The position numbers and the translations under genes were made by a program. Source: a virus. Taken from it: a stretch of DNA of 20,349 nt. The stretch covers positions 1-20,349 of IMG/VR virus record IMGVR_UViG_3300049491_000532, one strand, 5' to 3'. The notes beneath the pieces were generated by a model. That model did no database searches. It saw nothing but the letters and a program-made list of their open reading frames with translations, and was not told the DNA's origin. How positions within the stretch are numbered: the stretch's first letter is position 1; the number at the start of each line of letters is the position of its first letter. Shown one piece after another: positions 305-19,478 of this stretch.

Positions 305-396
305 GCCTAACATGGCAGTCAACCGGACAAGCCCCGGCAGGCTATCTCGCTCCGGCAGCACCGCGCGGGGGCTTGCCGGTTACTTCTACGTTGGGC
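305..396 (+). repeat. attC site A
   Basis: The left core GCCTAAC is at 305-311 and the right core GTTGGGC at 390-396. The inner arms pair over about 18 bases around CCGGACAAGCCCC and GGGGCTTGCCGG. The left arm carries one extra base inside this stem and another next to GTCAACC, giving plus-strand polarity. The leftward gene 342-653 reads into this site and ends in its central loop. The next leftward gene starts 29 bases beyond the site. Confidence 0.85.
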
Positions 397-653
397 GTCT
401 TGCAGTCCGCGAAGTCCTCCGCGTGCTGCAAGGTGTCGCGGTCCATCTTGGTGGCGTAGTCAGGTTGCCATGTCCGGGCCACCTCCAGCACCAAGCGCAA
501 ATGCTTTTCCAACAGTTCGGCGCGGCTCTGCGCATCGACTTCCCACCCTTGGATCATCTCGATTACCGAAACGGGGTCCGTGTGCGCGTCAGTGCAGTCA
601 AGGTGCGCGCGGATGCGCTGCAATTCGGCATACATCGCTGGCGTCATGCTCAT
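342..653 (-). CDS. Hypothetical protein whose C-terminus is encoded by attC A
   Basis: This 103-residue leftward gene starts at the ATG at 653-651, overlapping the stop of gene 653-883 (TGATG). An AAGGAG ribosome site lies eight bases upstream, inside that gene. The body is a predicted helical soluble protein (MTPAMYAELQ, then a second helix around SRAELLEKHLRLVLEVARTW). No known domain is recognised. About residue 85 the frame enters attC A, so the tail (TPNVEVTG and onward) is translated recombination-site DNA and the stop TAG lies in the attC loop. The original gene probably lost its own stop when it was joined to the attC. It is translationally coupled to its upstream neighbour in the leftward operon. 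Confidence 0.7.
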   Translation of the reverse strand: MSMTPAMYAELQRIRAHLDCTDAHTDPVSVIEMIQGWEVDAQSRAELLEKHLRLVLEVARTWQPDYATKMDRDTLQHAEDFADCKTPNVEVTGKPPRGAAGAR

Positions 654-883
654 CAGGCGTTCTCCTTCATTTGGTCCAGCCAGTCGAAGTAGGATTCCGG
701 GTCGCTCACAAGCGCGGCGGTGCACAGCAGCATGTAGCAGGCGCGAGCCATCGTGTCCGCGCGCTGCGGCCCAGCCGCTTTCGCCATGCGGTTTGCCAGT
801 CGGACAGCATCGTCTAATAGCTCCGGCACCGGCCGCCCAACTGGTTGGTCAACCGGACTTGCGCCGGCAAGGGTGTCATTCAT
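653..883 (-). CDS. Small hypothetical protein, family shared with the right arm
   Basis: This 76-residue leftward gene starts at the ATG at 883-881, which overlaps the stop of gene 880-1179 in an ATGA junction. AGGAG lies five bases upstream. Both the ribosome site and the start codon sit in the apical loop of attC B, so roughly the first 15 residues are translated attC sequence. The rest (GRPVPELLDDAVRLANRMAKAA, then a helical C-terminus rich in aromatic and acidic residues) looks like a compact helical protein of unknown function. A degraded relative at 14679-14795 shares two 17-base identical blocks with it and also begins right beside an attC core, so this family seems to travel with attC sites. 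Confidence 0.7.
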   Translation of the reverse strand: MNDTLAGASPVDQPVGRPVPELLDDAVRLANRMAKAAGPQRADTMARACYMLLCTAALVSDPESYFDWLDQMKENA

Positions 884-928
884 CGTTGCTCCTGTGTGGG
901 CGCAAGCCGGTTACCGCCGACGTTAGCC
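835..928 (+). repeat. attC site B
   Basis: The left core GCCCAAC is at 835-841 and the right core GTTAGCC at 922-928 (one deviation from GTTRRRY). The inner stem GTCAACCGGACTTGCGCC pairs with GGCGCAAGCCGGTTACC, with extra bases on the left arm only, so polarity is plus. The whole site is coding on the minus strand. Its loop contains AGGAG and the ATGA junction that ends gene 880-1179 and starts gene 653-883. The left core complements the right core of site A (GTTGGGC), as expected for the cassette 391-922. Confidence 0.85.
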
Positions 929-1179
929 GGCTTGCTGCGGTTCACCAGTTCGCGCATCAAGTCCATGCCGGCATCAGCCAGTGTGAGCTTGCGAAGCTCG
1001 TTTTCTGGCAGCGCCAGCACTTCGGTGCGGCGAAGCATGCGCACAGCGCACTTTCCGTGATACAGGCCACCGACCGGAAACCCCGGCAGAGTCAGCATTC
1101 GGTCGAGATGTCCCAAGCCGTTGCAAATGGCGCATAGCCGCAGCTTGCGAACGTCGTGTGCAGTAAATTGTTTGCTCAT
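880..1179 (-). CDS. Hypothetical protein with a CxxC zinc-binding-like motif
   Basis: This leftward 99-residue gene starts at the ATG at 1179-1177. The region between it and the divergent gene at 1245 is only 65 bases, and no clear ribosome site is seen. Residues 16-19 are CAIC followed by NGLGH, with a third cysteine near residue 45 (HGKCAVRML), a layout suggestive of a small metal-binding fold; this is inference. The last 20 or so residues (ANVGGNRLAPTQEQR) are encoded by attC B. The stop TGA overlaps the start of gene 653-883, so the three genes 880-1179, 653-883 and 342-653 form one coupled leftward unit across two attC sites. No characterised family is recognised. Confidence 0.7.
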   Translation of the reverse strand: MSKQFTAHDVRKLRLCAICNGLGHLDRMLTLPGFPVGGLYHGKCAVRMLRRTEVLALPENELRKLTLADAGMDLMRELVNRSKPANVGGNRLAPTQEQR

Positions 1180-1232
1180 GTCGATTATTGAATCACGTCA
1201 ACATCAAGCGCGCAAGTGGTTTTTGCATCACC

Positions 1233-1238
1233 TATACT
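1233..1238 (+). promoter_or_regulatory. Candidate -10 element for a leaderless cassette gene
   Basis: TATACT lies six bases before the ATG at 1245 and no ribosome site is present, so a transcript started from it would begin almost at the start codon. No good -35 element is visible at the usual distance, hence the low confidence. Confidence 0.3.
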
Positions 1239-1244
1239 CGCGGG

Positions 1245-1409
1245 ATGGAAGAACCGAAGAACAAGGGCGGTCGCCCGCCGAAGCCAGAAGCCGAACGCCT
1301 GGTGCAGCGGTCAATCCGCTTGCCGCCTGCGCTGTGGGCCAAGATCGACACCCACGGCCTGGAGTGGTTGCGCGCGGTCATTCAGCGCGCTCGTCCACCA
1401 GCCGGCTAA
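1245..1409 (+). CDS. Small basic protein, cassette gene in normal orientation
   Basis: This 54-residue rightward gene begins MEEPKNKGGRPPKPEAER and continues with a predicted helix (IRLPPALWAKIDTHGLEWLRAVIQRA). The opening KNKGGRPP resembles the AT-hook-like, basic start seen on many small ribbon-helix-helix or plasmid-type DNA-binding proteins, and the RSIRLPPALWAKID stretch fits a ribbon-helix-helix strand and helix. DNA binding is therefore a reasonable inference. The stop TAA is part of the left core GGCTAAC of attC C, the classical arrangement for an integron cassette gene. It runs opposite to the leftward operon around it. The start is chosen at 1245 because the composition upstream is not gene-like. 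Confidence 0.75.
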   Translation: MEEPKNKGGRPPKPEAERLVQRSIRLPPALWAKIDTHGLEWLRAVIQRARPPAG

Positions 1410-1462
1410 CTGGTCGCTCAAGCGGACCGCCTTCGGCGGCCCGCTTAGCTCCAACGTTAGGC
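1404..1462 (+). repeat. attC site C, canonical 59-base element
   Basis: The left core GGCTAAC is at 1404-1410 and the right core GTTAGGC at 1456-1462, exactly 59 bases. The inner arms GCTCAAGCGGACCGCC and GGCGGCCCGCTTAGC pair around a TTC loop, with extra unpaired bases on the left arm only. Spacer and arms closely resemble the attC of aadA cassettes. The left core complements the right core of site B (GTTAGCC), although both deviate from the consensus at the matching position. That compensatory pair is strong evidence for a true cassette at 923-1456. Confidence 0.92.
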
Positions 1463-1550
1463 GTCGAAGAAGCCACAGTTTCACTCCGCGACTACGTTGC
1501 AAGCAATGTTTGCGCTTGACTTTGCGCCTTGCGCCTTCAACATCGAGAAA

Positions 1551-1635
1551 GACGGCGACAGGATTCGAACCTGCGATGTCGCGTTAGCGAAGCTCCTTGC
1601 CGGGAAACTGCAATCGACCACTCTGCCACGCCGTC
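1551..1635 (-). tRNA. Serine-type (class II) tRNA-like gene, apparent GGC anticodon
   Basis: On the minus strand the 85 bases fold as a 7-bp acceptor (GACGGCG with CGCCGTC), a D arm GCAGAGTGGTCGATTGC typical of serine tRNAs, a 5-bp anticodon stem (GTTTC with GGAGC, two wobble pairs) around CCGGCAA, a 4-bp variable-arm hairpin (TCGC-TAAC-GCGA), and a T arm with TTCGAAT. The anticodon at the normal position is GGC (1599-1601), which reads alanine codons, and base 33 is C instead of the near-universal U. No CCA end is encoded. It is either a degenerate tRNA-Ser copy or an altered tRNA with a serine body. It lies downstream of gene 1678-2139 in the same cassette. Confidence 0.65.
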
Positions 1636-1643
1636 AAAACCCA

Positions 1644-1670
1644 GAACGCCCGGATGACCTCCGGGCGTTC
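1644..1670 (-). terminator. Rho-independent terminator after the HARE-HTH-like gene
   Basis: A perfect 10-bp stem GAACGCCCGG / CCGGGCGTTC with a 7-base loop is followed on the minus strand by TGGGTTTT. It lies eight bases beyond the stop of gene 1678-2139 and just before the tRNA-like gene. The T run is short. Confidence 0.65.
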
Positions 1671-1677
1671 GTCCTTC

Positions 1678-2139
1678 TTAAGCCCCCTTCTTGAGCATCC
1701 ACTTCTTCTCGTCGTCATGCGTCACTAAGCTTGAGTGACTCAAGTGGGCCGACAAGTTTGCCTTCGGGTCCTTGCCCCGAACGACAATGCCTTTCGCGGC
1801 AAGCCGCTCGAAGATCTCGTTCCGCGTCAACCCTCCGCCAGCCTCGCGTAGAACCTCGACAATGGCGGGCTCCAACTTTGGGGTTCGCTTAGGCTGGAGC
1901 GAGAAACGCTGACCGTTCGTCAGAAAGTTGAGTACCTCGCCATCCGCTTGCGCCGGTCGCGCGACCTCCGACCGACCTTCGGTTTGAGGCTCTTCATCTA
2001 CGTCCTCCCCTTCGAAAGCAACGGCAACGCGCTCCATCCGCGCGAACAGTTCAGCATCAATCAGCGCAAGCTGCTCGTTTTGTTTCGCGATCTCGGCCAC
2101 TATGGCCCTGCGCCTACGAATGAGTTGCTGGAGCTTCAT
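1678..2139 (-). CDS. HARE-HTH-like winged-helix protein
   Basis: This leftward gene encodes 153 residues if it starts at the ATG at 2139, which has GAGG seven bases upstream; an ATG at 2145 is too close to the ribosome site. Residues 1-40 form a basic coiled coil (LIRRRRAIVAEIAKQNEQLALIDAELFARM) and residues 41-88 an acidic then basic linker. Residues 90-153 form a winged-helix module with the pattern EVLREAGGGLTRNEIF...GIVVRGKDPKANLSAHLSH, close to the HARE-HTH family found on restriction and chromatin-associated proteins. DNA binding is likely; the target is unknown. It has its own promoter (2159-2187) and terminator (1644-1670), so it can be expressed independently of the phage operon, as a lysogenically expressed cargo gene would be. 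Confidence 0.8.
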   Translation of the reverse strand: MKLQQLIRRRRAIVAEIAKQNEQLALIDAELFARMERVAVAFEGEDVDEEPQTEGRSEVARPAQADGEVLNFLTNGQRFSLQPKRTPKLEPAIVEVLREAGGGLTRNEIFERLAAKGIVVRGKDPKANLSAHLSHSSLVTHDDEKKWMLKKGA

Positions 2140-2158
2140 TGCCATTCCTCTGCCACGC

Positions 2159-2187
2159 ACTGTATCGCAATCCAGTAGTTGCCACAA
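2159..2187 (-). promoter_or_regulatory. Sigma70-type promoter for the HARE-HTH-like gene
   Basis: Read on the minus strand, TTGTGG (2187-2182) and TACAGT (2164-2159) are separated by 17 bases, about 20 bases upstream of the start codon at 2139. Confidence 0.5.
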
Positions 2188-2237
2188 CACCACTTAATCC
2201 CGACTTTTGCGCTCAACTATTATCGCGGCTAGTCGAC

Positions 2238-2363
2238 GCCTAACCCTTCGCTCGAGCCGACCCGCTCCGGCAGGCCAGCCCGGCCGCCCAGTGCGGCAAG
2301 CCATGTTGCACCGGTCGGCCGGGCAGTCCTGCCTCCACGGTCGGCTCAGCTCAAACGTTAGGC
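2238..2363 (+). repeat. attC site D
   Basis: The left core GCCTAAC is at 2238-2244 and the right core GTTAGGC at 2357-2363 (126 bases). GCTCGAGCCGACC pairs with GGTCGGCTCAGC, with one extra base on the left arm. The spacers closely follow those of aadA-type sites. The long central part is GC-rich and partly self-complementary. The right core supplies the TAA stop of the leftward gene 2358-2786. Confidence 0.88.
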
Positions 2364-2786
2364 CCCAAGGCCCACATCGTGCACGGCGCGACAGTCAGGG
2401 CAGCCGGGCGGCAGGCCACACTTCACGCATCGGCCGGCGTTGTCATTGCCGGTGAACTGGCAGTCCGTGATTGCAGAGTCAATGCACCGCAGGCCACGCT
2501 GCACGTACTCGCGCACCGACTCTGCGCCCATGCGCTCGCGCCAGATTGGGTCGATCAACTGCCGAGCGTCATTGATCCCGCGCAGCAGCGTCTCGATTTG
2601 CTGGCTCTTTCGCACGCGCCACATGCGCTCGCCCGTCGCCGCGTCTTGCCATGACTCGTAGCCTTTTGGCCCGGCCACGGCTGCACGCAGTCGGTAAATC
2701 TCGGCCCACAATTCCGCCTCGGTAGCGTTGGGGCCTAACCCTTCCATCGAGCCGACCTTTGCCGGCGTAGTTCCTTCAGTGCTCAC
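2358..2786 (-). CDS. Hypothetical protein with C-terminal cysteine cluster, both ends encoded by attC DNA
   Basis: This 142-residue leftward gene starts with GTG at 2786, four bases after AAAGGA. Start and ribosome site lie in the apical loop of attC E, so the first 17 or so residues (up to SMEGLGP) are translated attC sequence. The stop TAA is in the right core of attC D. Residues 20-100 are helical and charged (EAELWAEIYRLRAAVAG, then RMWRVRKSQQIETLLRG). Near the end CVKCGLPPGCPDC suggests a small zinc knuckle. No characterised family is recognised. An internal ATG (Met14) could be an alternative start, but it has a poorer ribosome site. It occupies the cassette 2358-2828 in reverse orientation. 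Confidence 0.75.
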   Translation of the reverse strand: MSTEGTTPAKVGSMEGLGPNATEAELWAEIYRLRAAVAGPKGYESWQDAATGERMWRVRKSQQIETLLRGINDARQLIDPIWRERMGAESVREYVQRGLRCIDSAITDCQFTGNDNAGRCVKCGLPPGCPDCRAVHDVGLGA

Positions 2787-2834
2787 GGTGTCCTTTCTTG
2801 CGCCGTCAAAGGCGGCTCATGTCAAACGTTAGGG
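2733..2834 (+). repeat. attC site E
   Basis: The left core GCCTAAC is at 2733-2739 and the right core GTTAGGG at 2828-2834. The inner stem ATCGAGCCGACCTTTG pairs with CAAAGGCGGCTCATG, leaving extra bases on the left arm only. The loop holds the AAAGGA ribosome site and GTG start of the leftward gene 2358-2786. Its right core GTTAGGG, off consensus at the last base, is matched by the equally off-consensus left core CCCTAAC of site F. Confidence 0.88.
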
Positions 2835-2865
2835 CGCTTAGGGTTTGCGAGCATCAAAACTCCCC

Positions 2866-2894
2866 TTGCATAGTCCGCATGATGCGGCTATAGT
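2866..2894 (+). promoter_or_regulatory. Sigma70-type promoter inside the cassette 2829-3490
   Basis: TTGCAT (2866-2871) and TATAGT (2889-2894) are separated by exactly 17 bases. They lie 45 bases upstream of the ATG at 2939, with AGGAG in between. This is a strong match, so the cassette carries its own promoter. Confidence 0.75.
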
Positions 2895-2938
2895 CTAGTC
2901 ATCGGTTGCAGGTCGCAGCCGACAACCAGGAGACCGCA

Positions 2939-3199
2939 ATGACTACCGCCACCACCTACACCGATCCCGTCGTTATCGAGCGCATGCCTGACCATCTGCG
3001 CGGGTCGCATCGCGCCGCTAGAAACTGGGGCAGCTACCCGCACAACGGCGCCGAGCGCGTCATCGTCGAGCGCTCGGATACCGAACAGTGGTGCTACGAC
3101 GCCGAAAAAGACGCACACTCCGGCATCGAGGCCGACGAATACGATCGCATCTTGCGGGACGCGGCCCAGGCCGACTTCGAGCGCTACAAGGCTGAGTGA
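2939..3199 (+). CDS. Small acidic protein, first gene of a self-promoted two-gene cassette
   Basis: This 86-residue rightward gene starts at the ATG at 2939, seven bases after AGGAG. The product is polar and acidic, with several aromatic residues (MPDHLRGSHRAARNWGSYPHNG, then QWCYDAEKDAHSGIEADEYD) and a helical C-terminus. No membrane segment, signal peptide or known motif is seen. Its stop overlaps the start of the next gene by one base (TGATG), so both are translated together. The pair runs in the attC direction, opposite to the phage operon, under its own promoter. Self-transcribed two-gene cassettes are often toxin-antitoxin modules; the layout allows that here, but nothing in the sequence proves it. 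Confidence 0.78.
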   Translation: MTTATTYTDPVVIERMPDHLRGSHRAARNWGSYPHNGAERVIVERSDTEQWCYDAEKDAHSGIEADEYDRILRDAAQADFERYKAE

Positions 3200-3399
3200 T
3201 GCCAGGCCGCCCGTCAGCGGCGGCCGAGAAGGCCGCCAAATGGCTCGCAGCAGGCATCGCCGCCGGCCTGCCGCGCACGCACCCAGAGGCCGCACGTCGG
3301 TTCGGGCTGTCGCTCGACCAGACCGCGCGAATCTGGGCCAAACTGGGCCAGCCACCATTGGCGCGCAGCCGTCCGCGCGCTCCGGCCACAGCGCCCTAA
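3199..3399 (+). CDS. Small helix-turn-helix-like protein, second gene of the cassette
   Basis: This 66-residue rightward gene starts at the ATG at 3199, overlapping the previous stop. The sequence is basic and helical. HPEAARRFGLSLDQTARIWAKLG (about residues 28-50) has the spacing of a small helix-turn-helix, so DNA binding is plausible. A basic, proline-rich tail follows. The TAA stop is part of the left core CCCTAAC of attC F, the classical end of a cassette gene. As the co-translated partner of the acidic protein before it, it could be a regulator or one half of a toxin-antitoxin-like pair. This is inference. Confidence 0.72.
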   Translation: MPGRPSAAAEKAAKWLAAGIAAGLPRTHPEAARRFGLSLDQTARIWAKLGQPPLARSRPRAPATAP

Positions 3400-3496
3400 C
3401 ACGCCGGTCGAGGCGAGAGCCAACAGCAGGCGCCGCTGTGCCGCTCCGGTCAGTTCGTCTCATGCTGTTGGCTCCGCCTCACCGGCAACGTTAGGC
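3394..3496 (+). repeat. attC site F
   Basis: The left core CCCTAAC is at 3394-3400 and the right core GTTAGGC at 3490-3496. A long stem, CGAGGCGAGAGCCAACAGCA with TGCTGTTGGCTCCGCCTC, leaves extra bases on the left arm only. Both outer cores supply stop codons: TAA of the rightward gene 3199-3399 on the left and TAA of the leftward gene 3491-3742 on the right. Confidence 0.9.
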
Positions 3497-3742
3497 CTCA
3501 TCTTCATCCGCCGCGTGTTCAATCGGCGCTGTGCACCAGAACGGTTCTTCTTCGCCTGGTGCATCATTCGGGCGATCCTCGACCCCATACACTGAATCCA
3601 GTTCATCGGCCAGAATCACATCCCCGCAGCGCGCCAGCCAAACGTGTCTGACAGTGGATCGTGGTTCACCATCCCACACATACCGAACGTGAGCGTCGTC
3701 AGGCATTGCCGCAAGTAACGCCAACAGTTTATTTACTCGCAT
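3491..3742 (-). CDS. Small acidic hypothetical protein
   Basis: This 83-residue leftward gene starts at the ATG at 3742-3740, with AAAGGA eight bases upstream. It opens MRVNKLLALLAAMPDDAHVRYVWDGEP, a pattern familiar from small phage proteins in which a short helix precedes a beta-rich part, and ends in an acidic tail (EHAADEDEA). No catalytic residues or membrane segments are visible. The stop TAA is part of the right core of attC F, so the gene fills the cassette 3491-3861 in reverse orientation. Function unknown. Confidence 0.75.
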   Translation of the reverse strand: MRVNKLLALLAAMPDDAHVRYVWDGEPRSTVRHVWLARCGDVILADELDSVYGVEDRPNDAPGEEEPFWCTAPIEHAADEDEA

Positions 3743-3767
3743 CTCTGCATCCTTTCGCGCAAATGAG

Positions 3768-3867
3768 TTCTAACAATTCCATCGAACGGACACACAACGG
3801 CGGGTGCCGAAAGTATGTTTCTCATAGAGCTGTCACGCCGTTGTGTGCCGCTCATGTCACGTTAGGC
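3768..3867 (+). repeat. attC site G, last of the left array
   Basis: The left core TTCTAAC is at 3768-3774 and the right core GTTAGGC at 3861-3867. The stem ATCGAACGGACACACAACGG pairs with CCGTTGTGTGCCGCTCATG, with extra bases on the left arm only. The left core does not complement the right core of site F, the only one of six junctions that fails. The right core provides the TAA stop of the phage gene 3862-4131, so this is the boundary between the cassette array and the phage operon. Confidence 0.88.
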
Positions 3868-4131
3868 CTTCTCGAACACATGGAACACCAGCGAGCCGCC
3901 GCGCATCTGGTATGTGCCGGCGTACTGCCCAGGGTCGCCGTCTGGCATTGGGTTTCCGGTGCCGTAGGTGGCGAAGTTGCGATGCACGATGGGCGCTTTC
4001 TCGTCAACCAGCGCCCACAGTTGCGGCATGTCACCCTGCACCTGTACTGTCAACAGTTTCGCGCCTTCCGGGATCGGCAGGCTTTGCAGGTCGAGCAATT
4101 GCAGCGACCATTTCCAGATTCGCATCTTCAC
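3862..4131 (-). CDS. DUF7352-like phage protein
   Basis: This 89-residue leftward gene starts with GTG at 4131, overlapping the methyltransferase stop (GTGA), with AGGAGG seven bases upstream. The pattern IWKWSLQLLDLQSLPIPEGAKLL, then LWALVDEKAP, then YGTGNPMP and a final LVFHVFE, matches the small beta-rich phage proteins that I recall as the DUF7352 family; the match is from memory. The role of that family is unknown. The stop TAA is contributed by the right core of attC G, so the last codons of a conserved phage gene border the cassette array. It is co-transcribed with the methyltransferase. Confidence 0.78.
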   Translation of the reverse strand: MKMRIWKWSLQLLDLQSLPIPEGAKLLTVQVQGDMPQLWALVDEKAPIVHRNFATYGTGNPMPDGDPGQYAGTYQMRGGSLVFHVFEKA

Positions 4132-4823
4132 AACAGCCCCTCCTGCACAGGCTGTCGCGGTTTTTCTGGCGGTAGTAGCGTGCCCTGGGCCTGGGCGCGG
4201 CTGATCCTCTCGCAGGCGATGTCGAAATACTTGCGCTCGCGTTCGATGCCGGTGAACGCCAGCCCGAGCTGCACGCAGGCCACGCCAGTGCTAGCGCTGC
4301 CCATGAAAGGGTCCAGCACTGTGGCGGGCCTGCCGGCTTGGTCCAAGCACCACGCCATCAGCGGAACGGGCTTCTGTGTCGGGTGGTAGTGCTTGCCTTC
4401 GGTCGCCAGTTGCCCATGGCTGTAGTCGAAAACTCGGTTCGGCTTCTCCAGGTTCGTCCAGGCATGCTCGGCTTCGCTACCGCTCCAGTTGCGAATGATC
4501 TTGTTCCACGACAGCAGGCACCGCGTCGACTGCATCAGGTAGAACTGGCCGCCCCAGACCACAGCCGTGTCGGCCTGCGCAAGCGCCATCAGCACGCCAT
4601 CGTCCACCGTGTTCCGGTCCCAGATTTCCGCGCCGGCCGCGTAGTGCTTGCTCCAATATTGCGGGCCGCTCGTCCTCGAAGCGCCGGGCCGGTGCAGCAG
4701 GTCGCCCAGGCCATACGGAGGGTCAGTCAGCACTAGGTCAAAGCGCGGAAGCAGCGGCAGCACCTCTCGGCAGTCCCCGTGCCACAGTTCAGCGTTCCCG
4801 ATCACTACTTTCTCTGCCATCAT
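4128..4823 (-). CDS. DNA methyltransferase, beta class (N6-adenine or N4-cytosine)
   Basis: This 231-residue protein is an S-adenosylmethionine-dependent DNA amino-methyltransferase, predicted to modify phage and host DNA, probably against host restriction. The catalytic motif DPPY is at residues 34-37. HPTQKP follows at 147-152 and the AdoMet-binding motif DPFMGSASTG at 171-180. The order catalytic then AdoMet motif is that of the beta class. Length fits solitary phage enzymes, and no restriction gene lies nearby. Two adjacent ATGs (4823 and 4820) are possible starts. The stop overlaps the next gene. Target sequence and methylated base cannot be read from the sequence. Confidence 0.93.
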   Translation of the reverse strand: MMAEKVVIGNAELWHGDCREVLPLLPRFDLVLTDPPYGLGDLLHRPGASRTSGPQYWSKHYAAGAEIWDRNTVDDGVLMALAQADTAVVWGGQFYLMQSTRCLLSWNKIIRNWSGSEAEHAWTNLEKPNRVFDYSHGQLATEGKHYHPTQKPVPLMAWCLDQAGRPATVLDPFMGSASTGVACVQLGLAFTGIERERKYFDIACERISRAQAQGTLLPPEKPRQPVQEGLL

Positions 4824-5070: not shown

Positions 5071-5696
5071 GCCGGCATCCGATTCGAGTTTGCGGCCAAG
5101 GCGTTGTTGATGAGTTGCTGCCGAGCGATTGACCTTCGCGCGCGCGCGTATCGGGCTGCGTACTCGCTCTGTCGGAGCTTCTTCGGCTTGGGCACGTCGT
5201 TGCGGTCCACGGCGATCTCGAAATAGCGGGTGTAGTCGCCAACCTTGGCTTGGCGGTCCCACATGCAGATCCGAACGATGCGGGCTGCTCGAGCCAGGCG
5301 GATCGCCGACAGGCAGGTGGAGCGGGACGAGCCGGAGGCCTCCTGGAGGTCGGCCATGCTGACCGGGTGACTGAACAACAGGTCGACCATCTTGAGGAAG
5401 GCCACCATTTCCGAGCGGACGACGGGGCGGACGCACGATCGGAATACGCGCACGCACTCGGGCATCGGCGCCTCGCCGTCAGGCCCGATCAGCCAGAAAG
5501 CCGCCGGCCTGCCCTTGCACGTTGCCTTGTAGTGGTCGACGTGCACCGCCCGGCCCTGCATCTGGCGCAGCACTTTGCTGATTGTGTTCTCCCTAGAGTC
5601 CAGTTCGGCCGCGATCTGGCCGATGGTCATCGGGATGCGGGCCACGGAGGCTAGAACGCGCACGTAGAGCTGAACGCATCGGAGGTGGGATGCCAT
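5067..5696 (-). CDS. Protein with two predicted helix-turn-helix domains
   Basis: This 209-residue leftward gene starts at the ATG at 5696, overlapping the exonuclease stop (TGATG). Residues 18-60 resemble a winged helix (MTIGQIAAELDSRENTISKVLRQMQ). A second similar unit lies at about 100-140 (LLFSHPVSMADLQEASGSSRSTCLSAIRLARAARIV). The C-terminus is basic (LRQSEYAARYARARRSIARQQ). The duplicated MarR/IclR-like architecture points to a DNA-binding regulator. It sits in the recombination operon of the phage, between the nuclease and the methyltransferase. I do not recognise a named phage regulator. Confidence 0.75.
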   Translation of the reverse strand: MASHLRCVQLYVRVLASVARIPMTIGQIAAELDSRENTISKVLRQMQGRAVHVDHYKATCKGRPAAFWLIGPDGEAPMPECVRVFRSCVRPVVRSEMVAFLKMVDLLFSHPVSMADLQEASGSSRSTCLSAIRLARAARIVRICMWDRQAKVGDYTRYFEIAVDRNDVPKPKKLRQSEYAARYARARRSIARQQLINNALAANSNRMPA

Positions 5697-6388
5697 CAGC
5701 CGAGCACCCGGTGGGCTGCGGCCGGCACGAACGCGGTTGGCGTGTGCGTGCGGTCGAACTCGTCGATGACCTTGGCCATGTACTCGCGGGCCGCGCGAAC
5801 CTTCTGCTCGATCAACGGTTCCACCGAGCGGTCGCGCGTCACCACCCAGGTGGTCAGCCGCAGGTGCTCAGCGATGTGGCTGACGAAGTGCATCGTCTGC
5901 GGCTCGTAGCCGATCAGGCGCTCGGGCGTGTCCAGCAGCGCGTACTGCACATGCCATTCCTCGGCATCCCACAGCATCATGTAGCCGCGCATCTGCCAGA
6001 GGTAGTTATTGTCCTCACAGTCGGACAGCACGAGCGGTAATGTCGCCACCGACCACGAAACCTTGGTGTCGTGACCGATGCGCGCTCCCATGTCGAAGCA
6101 ATCGGCCTCGCCGGTCAGGATGCCGTTGCTACGGCGCTCGGTGTTCTTTGTCAGGCTCAGGCCGCGTACTCGGTTCACCAACTCGATCGCCTCGCCTTCC
6201 AGTTCCAGGCCCTTCTCGAGCTGCTTGCTGCCGATCTCGAAGTCAACGCCGAAGATGGTTTGCGCGGCCAGCGATCGAATGTGCATCTTGGCGCCCACCG
6301 ACAGCACCTCGCCAGCCTTCGCGGCGGCGGCGGTCGGCTCGGTCATGATCTTGCCGAGCGACGAGCACCGGATCAGGATGTCAGGCAT
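5696..6388 (-). CDS. YqaJ-type phage exonuclease (PD-(D/E)xK)
   Basis: This 230-residue protein belongs to the YqaJ-like viral recombinase/exonuclease group, which degrades one strand of broken DNA ends and feeds an annealing protein. The N-terminal IRCSSLGKIMT motif (residues 6-16) is characteristic. E64 and E66 (LELEGEAIEL), GEAD at 93-96 and DTK at 107-109 fit the PD-(D/E)xK active site. NYLWQMRGYMMLW (128-140) is the conserved Q-containing helix. The start at 6388 is preferred because translation from further upstream would add an unnatural leader. It directly follows the ERF gene, the classical two-component recombination pair. Confidence 0.88.
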   Translation of the reverse strand: MPDILIRCSSLGKIMTEPTAAAAKAGEVLSVGAKMHIRSLAAQTIFGVDFEIGSKQLEKGLELEGEAIELVNRVRGLSLTKNTERRSNGILTGEADCFDMGARIGHDTKVSWSVATLPLVLSDCEDNNYLWQMRGYMMLWDAEEWHVQYALLDTPERLIGYEPQTMHFVSHIAEHLRLTTWVVTRDRSVEPLIEQKVRAAREYMAKVIDEFDRTHTPTAFVPAAAHRVLG

Positions 6389-7271
6389 GCGCACCCCTCT
6401 CGTCGGCCACGCGGGCGGCCTTGCGCATGGCGCCGAACTCGGCATTCATCAGTTTCTGGCCCGTCTTGGTAAGAGCCCCCCACCAGTCGGTCAGCGGCTT
6501 GGTTCCCTGCATCGCGGCGGCGCGGCCTTGCTCGCAGAGTTCGTCGAACCGGTTGCCCTCGGCGTCGCTGCTGTCCTCGCCATGGCTCTGCGTGGCGCCG
6601 CGGCGGCGCATGCGACTCTCGTCGTCCTCGCCGCCGGTGGCCGTGCCGGTGATGGCCAGCAGGGACTGGCGCTTGAAGTACGAAGCGGCCGACTGCATTT
6701 CCTGCAATGGGTTCTTGGCGCCTCCGGTATCGGGGGGGCCTTCAAGAGAAAGCGTCTCGGTGTGCCCGTCGCGGTGTTCGAGGTAGCAGGTGACATAGAC
6801 CCACGGCTGGTCGCTCACCACGCCGTCAGTCGTCCAGGCCTTCGCTCCGAACTTCATGTCGTGGCGGAAGCCGAACCCGTGCTTCGACAGGGCTGGCGAC
6901 AGCATCCCGCACACCACGTCGAACTCAGATTGCATGAACTTTGGGCCTTGCCCGCCGTCCTTCTTCTTCTGGTCGACCAACTTTGTCTTCGGCACGACGA
7001 CGTTTTCTCCACGGAAGGCCGCGAAGTCGCGCCGGAACGCCAGCACTGCCTCGCGCTGGCGCTCGCGCTCCTGCGCCTCGCGGTGGCGCTCCTGCATCGC
7101 CATCAGCCGCTCGAGCCGGTCGAGGTCGGTATCGCCGGCCGCCATGGCGATGCGCAGGAGGTCGCCTGGTGTCACGACGGTCGGAACGTCGACCGTCTTC
7201 AGGGCTGGCAGCGCAGCCTCGCGCGGAACAAGGTCCAATTCGCGCACGGCCTCGGTGGTTGCTTGTTGCAT
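6381..7271 (-). CDS. erf: ERF-family single-strand annealing protein
   Basis: This 296-residue leftward gene starts at the ATG at 7271 behind AAGGAAA. Residues 60-95 form a charged helix (MQERHREAQERERQREAVLAFRRDFAAF). The ERF core follows from about 85 to 215: VVPKTKLVDQKK, YLEHRDGHTETLSLEGPPDTGG and MQSAASYFKRQSLLAITG; the last segment is the best-conserved part of ERF proteins. The acidic and basic C-terminus probably binds partners. ERF proteins anneal complementary single strands during phage recombination and genome circularisation. The pairing with the adjacent YqaJ-type nuclease supports the call. The stop lies seven bases inside the nuclease leader. Confidence 0.92.
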   Translation of the reverse strand: MQQATTEAVRELDLVPREAALPALKTVDVPTVVTPGDLLRIAMAAGDTDLDRLERLMAMQERHREAQERERQREAVLAFRRDFAAFRGENVVVPKTKLVDQKKKDGGQGPKFMQSEFDVVCGMLSPALSKHGFGFRHDMKFGAKAWTTDGVVSDQPWVYVTCYLEHRDGHTETLSLEGPPDTGGAKNPLQEMQSAASYFKRQSLLAITGTATGGEDDESRMRRRGATQSHGEDSSDAEGNRFDELCEQGRAAAMQGTKPLTDWWGALTKTGQKLMNAEFGAMRKAARVADERGAHA

Positions 7272-7287
7272 GAGGTTTCCTTGTGGT

Positions 7288-7446
7288 TCAGCGGAACAGC
7301 CAGCGGATCGCACGCACCCACCAAGGCGCCCGGGTGCGGATGACGACGGGACCTGTGATGCCGAGGCAGTTCTCCGGCCACTCGCGGAAGGCGCTGCGCA
7401 TGTCTCTCGGGAATCGGCGCGTCGTCTGGTTGTTTGGAAATGTCAT
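7288..7446 (-). CDS. Small basic hypothetical protein
   Basis: This 52-residue leftward gene starts at the ATG at 7446 with AGAAGG four bases upstream, overlapping the stop of the preceding peptide frame (ATGA). The product is basic and tryptophan-rich near its end (APWWVRAIRWLFR), possibly an amphipathic or membrane-associated helix. The frame is clean and fits the tight operon. It ends 17 bases before the ERF start. No family is recognised. Confidence 0.65.
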   Translation of the reverse strand: MTFPNNQTTRRFPRDMRSAFREWPENCLGITGPVVIRTRAPWWVRAIRWLFR

Positions 7447-10948: not shown

Positions 10949-11325
10949 GACAGCTTTCGCTCGTCGATCCGATCGACCAGTCCCGAAGCGCTGCGCGGGC
11001 GGAGGCGCTGGAAGCCTCGAAGCGCCGCGGCGGCCGACTTGCCGATTGCGCAGGCGACAAGGCCGGCGGTGAATGGGTCGAGGCCGCAGTCGCCTCTCTG
11101 CGCGTGCTCGCTGTTGCTGCTTACCCAGGAATGTTCAGCATCGAGCAGGCCCGCCTCGTGATTCATCAGTCGCTGCAACGCCCGCATGACCTTCGCGCGT
11201 GGGGCCGCGTCACGCAGCTCTCCGTCAGGCGCGGGTTCATCGCCCGCGTCAAGGGCAAGACGCTCCCGGCAGCGAGCAGCCATGGCAGCGAGAAGCCATG
11301 CTTCACGAAGGGGCCGAACGCATGA
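10945..11325 (+). CDS. Putative winged-helix protein before the replication gene
   Basis: This 126-residue rightward gene starts in an ATGA overlap. Residues 1-55 are polar and basic. Residues 58-105 (AYPGMFSIEQARLVIHQSL, then DLRAWGRVTQLSVRRGFIARVKG) resemble a small winged helix seen in phage replication-module proteins. The C-terminus is basic and low in complexity. DNA binding is likely. Its role may be in origin function or regulation, since it directly precedes the O-like gene, whose start overlaps its stop. Confidence 0.7.
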   Translation: MRQLSLVDPIDQSRSAARAEALEASKRRGGRLADCAGDKAGGEWVEAAVASLRVLAVAAYPGMFSIEQARLVIHQSLQRPHDLRAWGRVTQLSVRRGFIARVKGKTLPAASSHGSEKPCFTKGPNA

Positions 11326-12104
11326 GCACAGCCATCATGGGCCTGTGCTGGCCCATGCAGATGCCGCCGACGCCAAAGGCGGTTTTGATCTCACTCGCCG
11401 ATCAGGCGAACGACCACGGGTCGTGCTGGCCGTCGATGAGCGGCATTGCCGAGCGCACATGCTTTGGCAGAACAGCCGTGATCGAGGCAATCAAGTGGCT
11501 CGAAGAAGCCGGCCTTCTTTCGATCGAGAAGAACGGCGGCAGGACGAACCGCTATCAACTCGACCTCAACCGGTTGCGCCAGCGCGAGATTGAACCAGTA
11601 CGCCAAGCGTACCAGTCCGGCAAACGGACCAGTCCGACAAACGGACATACCAGTCCGTCAGGCGGACTACCACCAGTCCGGGAGGCGGACCAACCAGTCC
11701 GGGAGGCGGACCCGAACCGTCAAGAACCGTCAATAGAACCAAAGAGAAAGAAGAAGCCTTCCGTTTCCGTGACGGTTCTGGTCGAAGCCGGATTCGACGA
11801 GGCCACCGCGGCTGAGTTCATCTCCCACAAGGTCGGCGTGAAAGCGCCACTCACAGAGCGGGCATGGAAGGACCACCTTGCCGAGTCGCGCAAGGCTGGA
11901 TGGTCGCCAGTAGCAGCGGCCGAAAAGGTCATGGCGCGGAACTGGAAAGGGTTCGATGCGAAGTACGTTTCTGGCGATCGCGGCGGAGGGTCGCAGAGCC
12001 GCAAGGAAACCCAACTCGAAACCGCAGCCCTCATGACCGGCGCAACGCGCCAACACCAGACCGGAGAGGTGATCGATGTCACACCCAGAATCCTCGCTTC
12101 CTGA
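11322..12104 (+). CDS. O-like replication initiator
   Basis: This 260-residue rightward gene starts in an ATGA overlap. Residues 10-85 are a winged helix of the phage replication-initiator type (PTPKAVLISLADQANDHGSCWPSMSGIAERTCFGRTAVIEAIKWLEEAGLL in pattern). Residues 90-145 are a low-complexity linker (PVREADQ repeats), and its DNA is an array of inverted repeats. Residues 148-220 form a folded C-terminal domain (VTVLVEAGFDEATAAEFISHKV, then KAGWSPVAAAEKVMARNWKGF), common in phage O-type proteins. As in lambda, the protein probably binds the iterons within its own gene and recruits the loader encoded next. Confidence 0.87.
   Translation: MSTAIMGLCWPMQMPPTPKAVLISLADQANDHGSCWPSMSGIAERTCFGRTAVIEAIKWLEEAGLLSIEKNGGRTNRYQLDLNRLRQREIEPVRQAYQSGKRTSPTNGHTSPSGGLPPVREADQPVREADPNRQEPSIEPKRKKKPSVSVTVLVEAGFDEATAAEFISHKVGVKAPLTERAWKDHLAESRKAGWSPVAAAEKVMARNWKGFDAKYVSGDRGGGSQSRKETQLETAALMTGATRQHQTGEVIDVTPRILAS
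11598..11765 (+). other. Predicted phage replication origin: six iterons plus a purine/AT-rich tract
   Basis: Five copies of the inverted repeat GTCCG-N5-CGGAC start at 11615, 11632, 11653, 11676 and 11697, each preceded by CCA. A diverged copy, GTACG-N5-CGTAC, starts at 11598. Steps are 17, 17, 21, 23 and 21 bases, close to two helical turns. A purine- and AT-rich stretch follows at about 11713-11765 (cgaaccgtcaagaaccgtca, then aagagaaagaagaag). Iterons plus an adjacent easily melted tract inside an initiator gene is the lambda origin plan. Confidence 0.83.
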
Positions 12105-14640: not shown

Positions 14641-14672
14641 GCCTAACGTTCGAGTTGAGGCCGCCGTTGGTC
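14641..14672 (-). repeat. Decayed attC remnant
   Basis: GCCTAAC (14641-14647), the spacer GTTCGAG and arm TTGAGGCC match one end of an attC read on the minus strand. GTTGGTC (14666-14672) looks like a degenerate opposite core. The central stem is missing, so the site is probably inactive. It follows the stop of gene 14202-14636 by five bases. Confidence 0.5.
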
Positions 14673-14678
14673 CGGCCG

Positions 14679-14795
14679 GTGCCGGAGCTAGAAGACGCTG
14701 CCGCGCTACTAGCAAAGCGCATGGCGAAAGCGGCGCCAGGGCGCGTGGGCGAGCCGACGCACATGGTGGTGCGCGGCATGCTTCATGATGCCTAA
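14679..14795 (+). pseudogene. Truncated relative of gene 653-883
   Basis: The 38-codon frame from the GTG at 14679 reads VPELEDAAALLAKRMAKAAP and continues to a TAA that lies in an attC core (GCCTAAC, 14790-14796). It shares with gene 653-883 (opposite strand) the identical blocks GGCCGGTGCCGGAGCTA and CGCATGGCGAAAGCGGC. It lacks the C-terminal third and a clear ribosome site, so it is probably a remnant. As in the left arm, homology begins right next to an attC core. Confidence 0.6.
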
Positions 14796-14796
14796 C
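14790..14796 (-). repeat. Isolated attC core
   Basis: GCCTAAC followed by GTTGGAATTCC resembles one end of attC H (GTCTAACGTTTGAATTCACC). It supplies the stop of the frame 14679-14795. No opposite arm is found, so only half a site remains. Confidence 0.4.
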
Positions 14797-15095: not shown

Positions 15096-15638
15096 ATGAG
15101 CAAGACACCACGAACCACGCTCGCAATCCGAAAGGCGGCAAAAGCCGAGCGACCTGCCGCGTACATGACTGGCTTGTGCAAAGAGTTGGAACTTGAGAAC
15201 CAGGCGCTGCGCGCTGAGGCGGAGCGCCATGGATGGCCCATCACCCTTGAATGGGGAGCGGCGCCGGTCAAGACGCAATGGGGCGCCGGCATGCGAGTCG
15301 CGGAAGTGGCGCTGTCGAAAGACGCTACTGCCAGCATCTATGCGCACGAAGACGATCTGCATTTGGTCAGGCTGGCCCTGTGGCCTAGCCTGGGGCCGAA
15401 CGTTGCGGTTGAGCGGCAAGACCGTACCCTGGCTTGTCCGTCTCGTCTGTCGCCCCTCCGACACGACGATGCCGGCATTGGAAACGCTGAGATTGACGAA
15501 CTGATCGGCGAATGCGTGAGCGGTGGTGTGGAGGCGTTCCTCGTGGGCGAGGACGACTTGCGCCGGTTCGCCCGCTCGGTTCTGGTGCACGGGCAAGGCC
15601 TGCTGCGCGAGAAAGTGCAGCAGGCTCTGGACGTCTAA
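15096..15638 (+). CDS. Hypothetical protein ending in attC H, possibly fused through an older attC
   Basis: This 180-residue rightward gene starts at the ATG at 15096 behind GAGGAG. The first 65 residues are basic and helical (LAIRKAAKAERPAAYMTGLCKELELENQALRAEAE). About residues 100-110 (GPNVAVERQ) the DNA resembles the end of an attC (GCCGAAC, then GTTGCGGTTGAGCGGC), so two pieces may have been fused. The C-terminal part (IDELIGECVSGGVEAFLVGEDDLRRF) is acidic and helical. The stop TAA is in the core GTCTAAC of attC H. No family is recognised. Confidence 0.7.
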   Translation: MSKTPRTTLAIRKAAKAERPAAYMTGLCKELELENQALRAEAERHGWPITLEWGAAPVKTQWGAGMRVAEVALSKDATASIYAHEDDLHLVRLALWPSLGPNVAVERQDRTLACPSRLSPLRHDDAGIGNAEIDELIGECVSGGVEAFLVGEDDLRRFARSVLVHGQGLLREKVQQALDV

Positions 15639-15690
15639 CGTTTGAATTCACCGGCACCCGAAGGGTGTCCGGTGGAATGAAGGGTTGGGC
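15633..15690 (-). repeat. attC site H, complete, opposite orientation
   Basis: Read on the minus strand, the left core GCCCAAC (15690-15684) and right core GTTAGAC (15639-15633) enclose a 58-base site. Inner arms TTCCACCGGACACCC and GGGTGCCGGTGAA pair around TTC, with extra bases on the left arm only, as in sites A-G. Polarity is therefore minus. Its left core complements the isolated core at 16083-16089, marking a cassette of about 445 bases between them. Confidence 0.88.
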
Positions 15691-15715
15691 GTCACCTGCG
15701 GCAAGACGCGCCGTA

Positions 15716-15744
15716 TTGGCATGGGCCGTAGCCGGTGCTGTATT
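15716..15744 (+). promoter_or_regulatory. Candidate promoter inside the right-arm cassette
   Basis: TTGGCA (15716-15721) and TGTATT (15739-15744) are 17 bases apart, 38 bases before the start of gene 15782-16081. This moderate match may let the cassette gene be expressed on its own. Confidence 0.35.
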
Positions 15745-15781
15745 TGAGCCGAGCCGAATGGCTGGGCGGATTGGAGCGAAG

Positions 15782-16081
15782 ATGACATTCCTTGGCTACA
15801 CATTTGCAACGCTGCTGTTATTGGTTCTCGGCGCACTATGGCGCGGGTACGTTTTGTGCCTTCTTTGGGCTTGGTTCATGGTGCCAACCTTCAAGGCGCC
15901 GGAACTTTCGATTCCTGCGGCCATCGGTGTTGCTCTGGTTGTCTCGTACTTGTGCCGCGACGGCAAGCCGTCCGAGAAAGACAAGACGTTCGCGCAACAG
16001 CTCGCTACCGGAGCAGTGACGGTCGCGCTGTCGCCATTGATTGCACTGGGTATCGGGGCTATGGTGCGTGGCTTCATGTGA
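15782..16081 (+). CDS. Membrane protein encoded in the right-arm cassette
   Basis: This 99-residue rightward gene starts at the ATG at 15782 behind GGAG. Hydrophobic segments at about residues 5-32 (LLLLVLGALW, then VLCLLWAWFMV), 43-55 (IGVALVVSYLC) and 72-97 (TGAVTVALSPLIALGIGAMV) suggest three or four membrane helices, with a charged loop (RDGKPSEKDKTF) between. The stop directly precedes the core GCCCAAC at 16083. It fills the cassette bounded by attC H and runs opposite to that attC's polarity. Holin-like or exclusion roles are possible, but nothing is diagnostic. Confidence 0.72.
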   Translation: MTFLGYTFATLLLLVLGALWRGYVLCLLWAWFMVPTFKAPELSIPAAIGVALVVSYLCRDGKPSEKDKTFAQQLATGAVTVALSPLIALGIGAMVRGFM

Positions 16082-16082
16082 C

Positions 16083-16089
16083 GCCCAAC
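16083..16089 (-). repeat. attC core at the end of cassette H
   Basis: GCCCAAC is the exact complement of the core GTTGGGC at the other end of the cassette (15684-15690). It lies one base after the stop of gene 15782-16081. The rest of the attC it came from is not recognisable, so it could be a remnant or a simpler attachment site used for insertion. Confidence 0.55.
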
Positions 16090-18881: not shown

Positions 18882-19478
18882 ATGGCATCCAGCGCAGCCA
18901 AGGCGCCGCGCAATGCCGGCGGCGGCCTGACCCCCAAACAGAAGCGGTTCGTCGACGAGTACCTGATCGACCTGAATGCGACGCAGGCCGCAACGCGAGC
19001 CGGCTACAGCGCCAGGACGGCGAACGAGCAGGGTGCTCGCCTGCTAGCAAAAGTTAGTGTGCGCTCCGCTGTTTCGGCGGCAAAACAGAAGCGCGCCGAG
19101 CGAACCGAAATCACGGCCGACCGCGTGCTGCGCGAGTACGCCAAACTGGCGTTTCTTGATCCGCGGGCGTTCTTCGACGATGCCGGGCATCTGATCGACG
19201 TGGCGAAGTTACCCGCCGATGTCGCGGCAGCGCTGGCCGGCATGGACGTGACGACCGAGCGCGTCGGCGAGGACGAAGAGGGTCGGCCGCAGTACGCGCA
19301 GATTCGCAAGGTGAAGTTCACCGACAAGAAGGGCGCCCTCGACTCGATCGCGCGGCACCTCGGGATGTTCAACGACAAGCTCGCTGTGACCGGCGCCAAC
19401 GGCGGGCCGGTGCAGTCCGTCAGCATGTCTCCGAAGGAGTTCCAGGAGATCGCGCGGGGCGTTGCCGGCGAGGTCTGA
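18882..19478 (+). CDS. terS: Terminase small subunit (Terminase_2 family)
   Basis: This 198-residue rightward gene starts at the ATG at 18882 with AAAGG eight bases upstream. LTPKQKRFVDEYLIDLNATQAATRAGYSARTANEQGARLL (residues 16-55 in pattern) is the signature DNA-binding helix-turn-helix of the family. It is followed by LREYAKLAFLDPRAFFDDAGHL and DKKGALDSIARHLGMF, the typical oligomerisation part. It recognises phage DNA for packaging and hands it to the large subunit. The stop overlaps the large-subunit start (TGATG). Confidence 0.95.
   Translation: MASSAAKAPRNAGGGLTPKQKRFVDEYLIDLNATQAATRAGYSARTANEQGARLLAKVSVRSAVSAAKQKRAERTEITADRVLREYAKLAFLDPRAFFDDAGHLIDVAKLPADVAAALAGMDVTTERVGEDEEGRPQYAQIRKVKFTDKKGALDSIARHLGMFNDKLAVTGANGGPVQSVSMSPKEFQEIARGVAGEV

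Follow-up and report, generated by a model that had tools for sequence, protein, structure and literature searches.

Eight sites in the 20,349-nt virus record IMGVR_UViG_3300049491_000532, which was analysed over its whole length and is called the window below, are genuine integron attC sites as judged by their sequence, arm pairing and extrahelical bases. Seven of them form an array in the left arm of a lambda-like phage, and the eighth, oppositely oriented, belongs to the right arm. In the window and in many other phages the attC sites are mostly antisense to transcription, and most cassette genes are inverted when compared with the genes of bacterial integrons. Other viral contigs with such arrays swap, gain and lose cassettes with exact G|TT ends. 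The explanation that we consider probable as a whole is that the phage has two attC loci with inverted polarity and no integrase of their own, at which the integron integrase (IntI) of the host acts in trans and cassettes are exchanged among phages.

An initial annotation, made from the letters alone, had described seven attC sites in one orientation between positions 305 and 3867. All seven were returned at those coordinates, in a single orientation, by each of three scans of the window: a direct core-and-fold scan, an arm-pairing scan and a scan requiring both extrahelical bases. In the attC frame of the left array, which is the plus strand, they are attC1 (305-396; R'' core GCCTAAC, R' core GTTGGGC; scan score 17), attC2 (835-928; GCCCAAC, GTTAGCC; 16), attC3 (1404-1462; GGCTAAC, GTTAGGC; 10), attC4 (2238-2363, 126 nt; GCCTAAC, GTTAGGC; 13), attC5 (2733-2834; GCCTAAC, GTTAGGG; 16), attC6 (3394-3496; CCCTAAC, GTTAGGC; 16) and attC7 (3768-3867; TTCTAAC, GTTAGGC; 14). 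They are clustered in 3.6 kb with G|TT cassette boundaries. The initial annotation overlooked attC8 in the right arm (15633-15690, minus strand; GCCCAAC, GTTAGAC; 17), as well as the inverted polarity of the genes and the likely cargo status of the genes adjoining the array.

The cores of all eight sites match RYYYAAC / GTTRRRY, no site deviating by more than one letter. Both extrahelical bases are found on the L'' side (a top-strand C, six pairs, then an A) with at most two mismatches in six of the seven left sites, the stem of attC4 having two, so that the paired arms with extra bases on the same arm that had been described are indeed present. In attC3 the pattern appears only with three mismatches, because its A faces a C rather than being bulged. 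When 100 dinucleotide shuffles of the window were run through the extrahelical-base scan, there were 0.11 matches per window and the highest score was 11. Seven of the eight sites outscore every shuffled window; attC3 is the exception, and on scan score alone it is therefore within the noise. It is, though, the best match of a covariance model trained solely on 58 bacterial attC of the short type (60.3 bits, E 3e-15, as against 17.1 bits on the opposite strand). The same model finds attC8 at 58.6 bits (E 1e-14), with 14.8 bits on the opposite strand, and thus in the right orientation. The four long-loop sites that it reports reach 12-18 bits, including a stem match of 18.2 bits for attC1 and 17.8 bits for attC2, and attC4 and attC7 are unlisted; these scores are low because the training set consists of short attC. 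A covariance-model check of the kind that the initial annotation proposed gave high scores for the two short sites only. A mixed model including long attC was dropped, its right arms having been misaligned by MAFFT, and no Rfam family catches the window sites at its gathering score. When folded, the bottom strands give attC hairpins, with z-scores from -1.8 to -8.8 (attC1 -2.7, attC4 -8.8, attC6 -7.8, attC7 -3.6). As a control, the scanner recovered three attC in phage TJE1, the same count as reported by Qi et al. (2023). It gave no site at a score cut-off of 12 in P12002L and MW202573, though Qi et al. report sites in both, and it therefore overlooks some attC.

At five of the six left junctions the first bases of the cassette are reverse-complementary to its own R'' core. 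The matching pairs are GTTGGGC/GCCCAAC, GTTAGCC/GGCTAAC, GTTAGGC/GCCTAAC (twice) and GTTAGGG/CCCTAAC, which bears out the earlier observation, including the three off-consensus pairs to which it had drawn attention; the sixth junction (GTTAGGC/TTCTAAC) has no match. The right-arm cassette with attC8 (15639-16088, minus strand) behaves in the same way, its start core at 16083-16089 (GTTGGGC on the minus strand) being complementary to its own R'' (GCCCAAC), so that the total is six of the seven junctions that could be checked.

Most of the window cassette genes are antisense to their attC and run in the same direction as the leftward operon. Cassette a (391-922), whose ends are G|TT boundaries and whose start is the GTTGGGC paired above, has the minus-strand genes 342-725 and 653-883; cassette b (923-1456) has genes 880-1179 (minus) and 1188-1409 (plus); cassette c (1457-2357) has gene 1678-2193 (minus); cassette d (2358-2828) has gene 2358-2786 (minus), with its TAA stop in the attC4 R' core; cassette e (2829-3490) has genes 2906-3199 and 3196-3399, both plus and hence sense to their attC; and cassette f (3491-3861) has gene 3491-3742 (minus), with its TAA stop in the attC6 R' core. 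All six cassettes are on the plus strand in the attC frame. Genes 880-1179 and 653-883, both on the minus strand, share an ATGA overlap within attC2, and the GTG start of gene 2358-2786 is inside attC5. In the right arm, an open reading frame (ORF) at 15096-15638 (plus) has its stop in the attC8 R' core.

The sites in viruses and bacteria were compared by searching the genomes of IMG/VR and GTDB for one exact attC-arm pattern and then applying the same site finder; the bacterial sites and cassettes, here and below, are those among the matches listed. Of the 200 viral sites left after deduplication, 91 have an antisense ORF (minimum 50 aa) that ends in the R' TAA and 46 a sense ORF that ends in R'', whereas at 380 bacterial sites the numbers are 57 and 181 (Fisher p 7e-16, and 1e-18 with ORFs of at least 100 aa). 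Counted by locus, the ratio of antisense to sense is 36 to 8 in viruses and 6 to 55 in bacteria. Two further tests are independent of ORFs ending in a core. For the tblastx frames of conserved cassettes the ratio of antisense to sense is 31 to 5 in phages and 11 to 15 in bacteria, and relative to the genes outside the arrays, 24 arrays are antisense and 5 sense. Furthermore, in loci fetched via the methyltransferase, a query containing no attC, 34 of 35 attC are antisense to the methyltransferase. An antisense start codon with a ribosome site lies inside the attC at 27 of the 200 viral sites and 20 of the 380 bacterial sites (p 0.001): such starts are enriched in phages, and are not unique to them.

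Cassettes are also shared between phages. Phage homologs were found for 39 of 137 phage cassettes. None of the 137 matches any of 285 bacterial cassettes, in what is a limited bacterial sample among the matches listed, and 38 of the 285 match one another. Exact G|TT swaps with unrelated flanks are seen between the viral contigs L091 and L168 (90% identity), L088 and L134 (83%) and L125 and L121 (79%), and the cassette shared by L101 and L134 has looser ends. In L134, of two neighbouring cassettes one is common to L088 and the other to L101. The sister phages L126 and L148, with 98% identity across 5.9 kb, have a cassette and its attC in common, and then diverge at the core G|TT; beyond this point no cassettes are present in L148, and those that follow in L126 have an R'' matching the preceding core (TGCTAAC/GTTAGCA). 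The initial annotation had proposed comparing close relatives for single cassettes with exact G|TT boundaries, and it is between other phages, such as L126/L148 and L091/L168, that these were found, not between the window and a close relative. Two of the genes in the window have homologs at attC elsewhere: 1188-1409 has homologs of 72-79% identity next to attC in the viral contigs L161 and L164, and for 3196-3399 there is a 57% homolog in L194, close to an attC. In addition, attC5 is 98% identical to an attC elsewhere among the phage contigs (L099/L194, 1421-1522), the sequences on either side being unrelated.

It is worth adding that near-identical long attC (92-98%) on unrelated gene bodies are seen in several sets of contigs (attC5/L194, L140/L158/L169 and L123/L132/L085), with identity stopping inside R'', whose first bases vary. 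From the sequences, this looks like attC hairpins having been placed on new bodies, that is, cassette genesis. Contig L202, from a Desulfobulbaceae MAG (metagenome-assembled genome), shares a stretch of 755 identical bases with a viral cassette in L121, and is probably a prophage or a misbinned phage.

Beside the array, the minus-strand gene 3862-4131 (DUF7352, Pfam PF24043) has its TAA stop in the attC7 R' core, and would for this reason be the start of a further cassette. The next gene, 4128-4823 (minus), encodes an orphan N6/N4 DNA methyltransferase (PF01555), which may likewise be cargo because its relatives sit between attC sites in other phages (L116, L117, L119, L170, and L313, the last 82% identical). 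The initial annotation had taken these genes for the early operon into which the array runs; both look like cassette cargo. Methyltransferase bodies that are 90% identical occur in L116 (9777-10387), between attC sites, and in L327 (6001-6611), with no attC nearby. For the most part the cassette proteins have no Pfam, PHROG or PADLOC match; for two of those in the window no relatives were found in the phage collection, and for DUF7352 no relative was found in the viral contigs. Cassette c also contains a predicted tRNA (1550-1635, minus), scored at 44 bits by Rfam tRNA and called by ARAGORN as tRNA-Ala GGC with an unusual length of 86 nt.

Two isolated R' halves, GCCTAACGTTCGAGTTGAGG on the plus strand at 14641-14647 and GCCTAACGTT on the plus strand at 14790-14796, the latter overlapping a gene stop, are in the orientation of attC8 (minus) and may be decayed attC sites; a relaxed scan around them found no complete attC. 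In the same region, the peptide encoded at about 14656-14795 (plus) is by eye similar to that of gene 653-883 (minus) in cassette a (RPVPEL...), although the right copy may be frameshifted. The likeness suggests that a cassette was duplicated or exchanged between the arms.

That the sites define integron cassettes in a lambda-like phage, as first described, is supported, and the genes are in lambda-like order. The exonuclease and Erf genes (5696-7313, minus; PHROG 5715 and 155) are on the leftward arm, the O-like replication initiator (11199-12104, plus; PHROG 391) lies between the arms, and an HNH nuclease and the terminase small subunit (18882-19478, plus; PF03592) follow on the right, the two arms being divergent. 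Arrays in both arms are also found in G001, G002, G006 and G025, with plus sites among leftward genes and minus sites among rightward genes. In G010 the stop codon of a NinB gene marks the start of the array, and this right-arm array therefore sits in the nin region. Terminase genes were found on array-bearing contigs in two separate searches, which means that the carriers are phages rather than just integrons that were misclassified. One exception is L150, which has a full IntI and mostly sense genes and looks like a host chromosomal integron. A weak model match in L012 (17426-17520, 28 bits) was not counted, as it lacks the extrahelical pattern, and the virus records behind eight methyltransferase and exonuclease relatives from isolates gave no covariance-model match.

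We therefore propose the following for the two loci. One in each early arm, they would serve as exchangeable accessory-gene loci. The integrase would act in trans, its most likely source being a bacterial host that has a chromosomal integron; a full-length IntI is present in eight of ten sampled bacterial genomes with this attC type. From the form of the sites, IntI would be the acting enzyme, recombining the folded bottom strands at G|TT and so allowing the phage to gain, lose and swap cassettes, for the most part with other phages. Since the attC run against transcription in both arms and most of the genes are inverted, the cassettes could be expressed from the two phage operons, leftward and rightward, without an integron promoter; stop codons often fall in the R' core, and some cassettes have their start codon and ribosome site within the attC hairpin. 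Lambda replication starts near O and proceeds bidirectionally. By analogy, replication from near the O-like gene in both directions would make the recombinogenic bottom strand the lagging-strand template in both arms, a position expected to favour folding and recombination. The polarity may also explain why phage and bacterial cassette pools are separate, because a bacterial cassette, being sense, would be silent once in a phage arm, as would a phage cassette in a bacterial integron.

Several observations weigh against this proposal. There is no TIGR02249 (integron integrase) match in the 20-kb record, which is possibly a fragment, and 29 of 30 array-bearing viral records, which may also be fragments, have no IntI above the cut-off (the one with a full IntI is L150). 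Sense genes are present in two of the six window cassettes (1188-1409 in b and 2906-3399 in e), five arrays are sense to their flanking genes, and the six long-loop sites are poor or absent in the short-attC model (18 bits at best). No close relative of the window with different cassettes was found. Among 77 loci, including relatives of the Erf and exonuclease genes, a credible attC was seen in one contig only, L003, where its relative position and orientation correspond to those in the window; the presence of the array is therefore sporadic in this lineage.

The attC could be real and yet be moved by the phage's own homologous recombination, with Erf and exonuclease acting on attC and conserved flanks as anchors, rather than by IntI. 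Both proteins are encoded by the phage, near-identical attC do occur with different bodies, and methyltransferase bodies are common to loci with and without nearby attC (L116/L327). At the best swap junctions, however, identity ends at G|TT on both sides, and the R'' bases follow the start of their own cassette, which anchoring by homology does not predict; we regard this explanation as unlikely. Quite improbable, in our judgement, is a fossil cluster, namely a stretch of host integron acquired once by illegitimate or specialised transduction, with cassettes that are now immobile. A Vibrio phage with a segment of its host's integron has been published (PMC9892861), the half sites at 14641 and 14790 look decayed, and most relatives of the phage lack attC. 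Nevertheless, host integron cassettes are mostly sense and those of the window mostly antisense, the sites are in both arms and in opposite orientations, the core complementarity and the hairpins are intact, the cassettes match other phages and not the sampled bacterial integrons among the matches listed, and the sister phages L126 and L148 differ in cassette content.

It is very improbable that the hairpins act mainly on mRNA, by translational coupling or termination, and merely resemble attC. Gene stops do lie in R', some starts with ribosome sites are inside the hairpin, and attC hairpins are known to influence translation (PMC8876359), but the extrahelical bases, core consensus, own-cassette complementarity, model score and exact swaps fit a recombination site, and roles in mRNA and recombination can coexist. 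An assembly chimera of phage and integron contigs is scarcely credible: the record is a single virus fragment, but the architecture recurs in independent contigs, five of them (including the window) with arrays in both arms, and several array contigs carry terminase. Exchange of cassettes at two inverted, integrase-less attC loci, with IntI from the host, is thus the explanation that we prefer. The broader proposal, that many temperate phages have their own cassette economy, with inverted two-arm arrays, lagging-template exposure, borrowed host integrases and a polarity that separates the pools, seems to us evenly balanced between true and false.

The movement between unrelated phages of the small variable genes that fill the early arms, often with roles in counter-defence (orphan methyltransferases, for example), has mostly been credited to homologous or illegitimate recombination. 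If the proposal is correct, site-specific cassette exchange provides a precise mechanism, and host integrons become agents of phage evolution. Inverted polarity would be a testable rule for separating phage from bacterial cassettes, and the near-identical attC on unrelated bodies bear on how cassettes are made.

The uptake of cassettes by phages is not new in principle, as the initial annotation had supposed it might be. Clusters of attC without an integrase (CALINs) were reported in phages TJE1, PH101, P12002L and MW202573, and IntI1 was shown to recombine some phage attC with attI1 (Qi et al., 2023, PMC9892861). These resemble the window in having integrase-less attC in phage genomes and DNA methyltransferases as cargo, and MW202573 has a relative of the window methyltransferase. 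Unlike TJE1, which has three attC with sense genes, the window has eight sites in two arms with mostly inverted genes, and what is added here is that the inversion recurs in many phage contigs, that phage cassettes appear to form a pool of their own and that swaps occur with exact ends. In a literature search of partial coverage, no description of two-arm or inverted phage attC arrays was recognised. The sedentary chromosomal integrons of Xanthomonadales and Burkholderiales have the same attC type, attC4 being 79% identical to 126-nt sites of Rubrivivax and Piscinibacter, but differ in having IntI and mostly sense genes. A complete integron would have intI beside the array, for which the record gave no match, and the typical bacterial cassette, with its gene sense to the attC, corresponds in the window only to cassette e and gene 1188-1409. 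In chromosomal integrons the attC bottom strands are on the leading-strand template in 25 of 30 cases (PMC5371416), opposite to the lagging placement expected for the phage. Finally, the arrays occupy the same genome position as the lambdoid nin region and left-arm accessory region, as in the G010 array; unlike those regions, they have attC separating the accessory genes, which would provide a site-specific route for their exchange.

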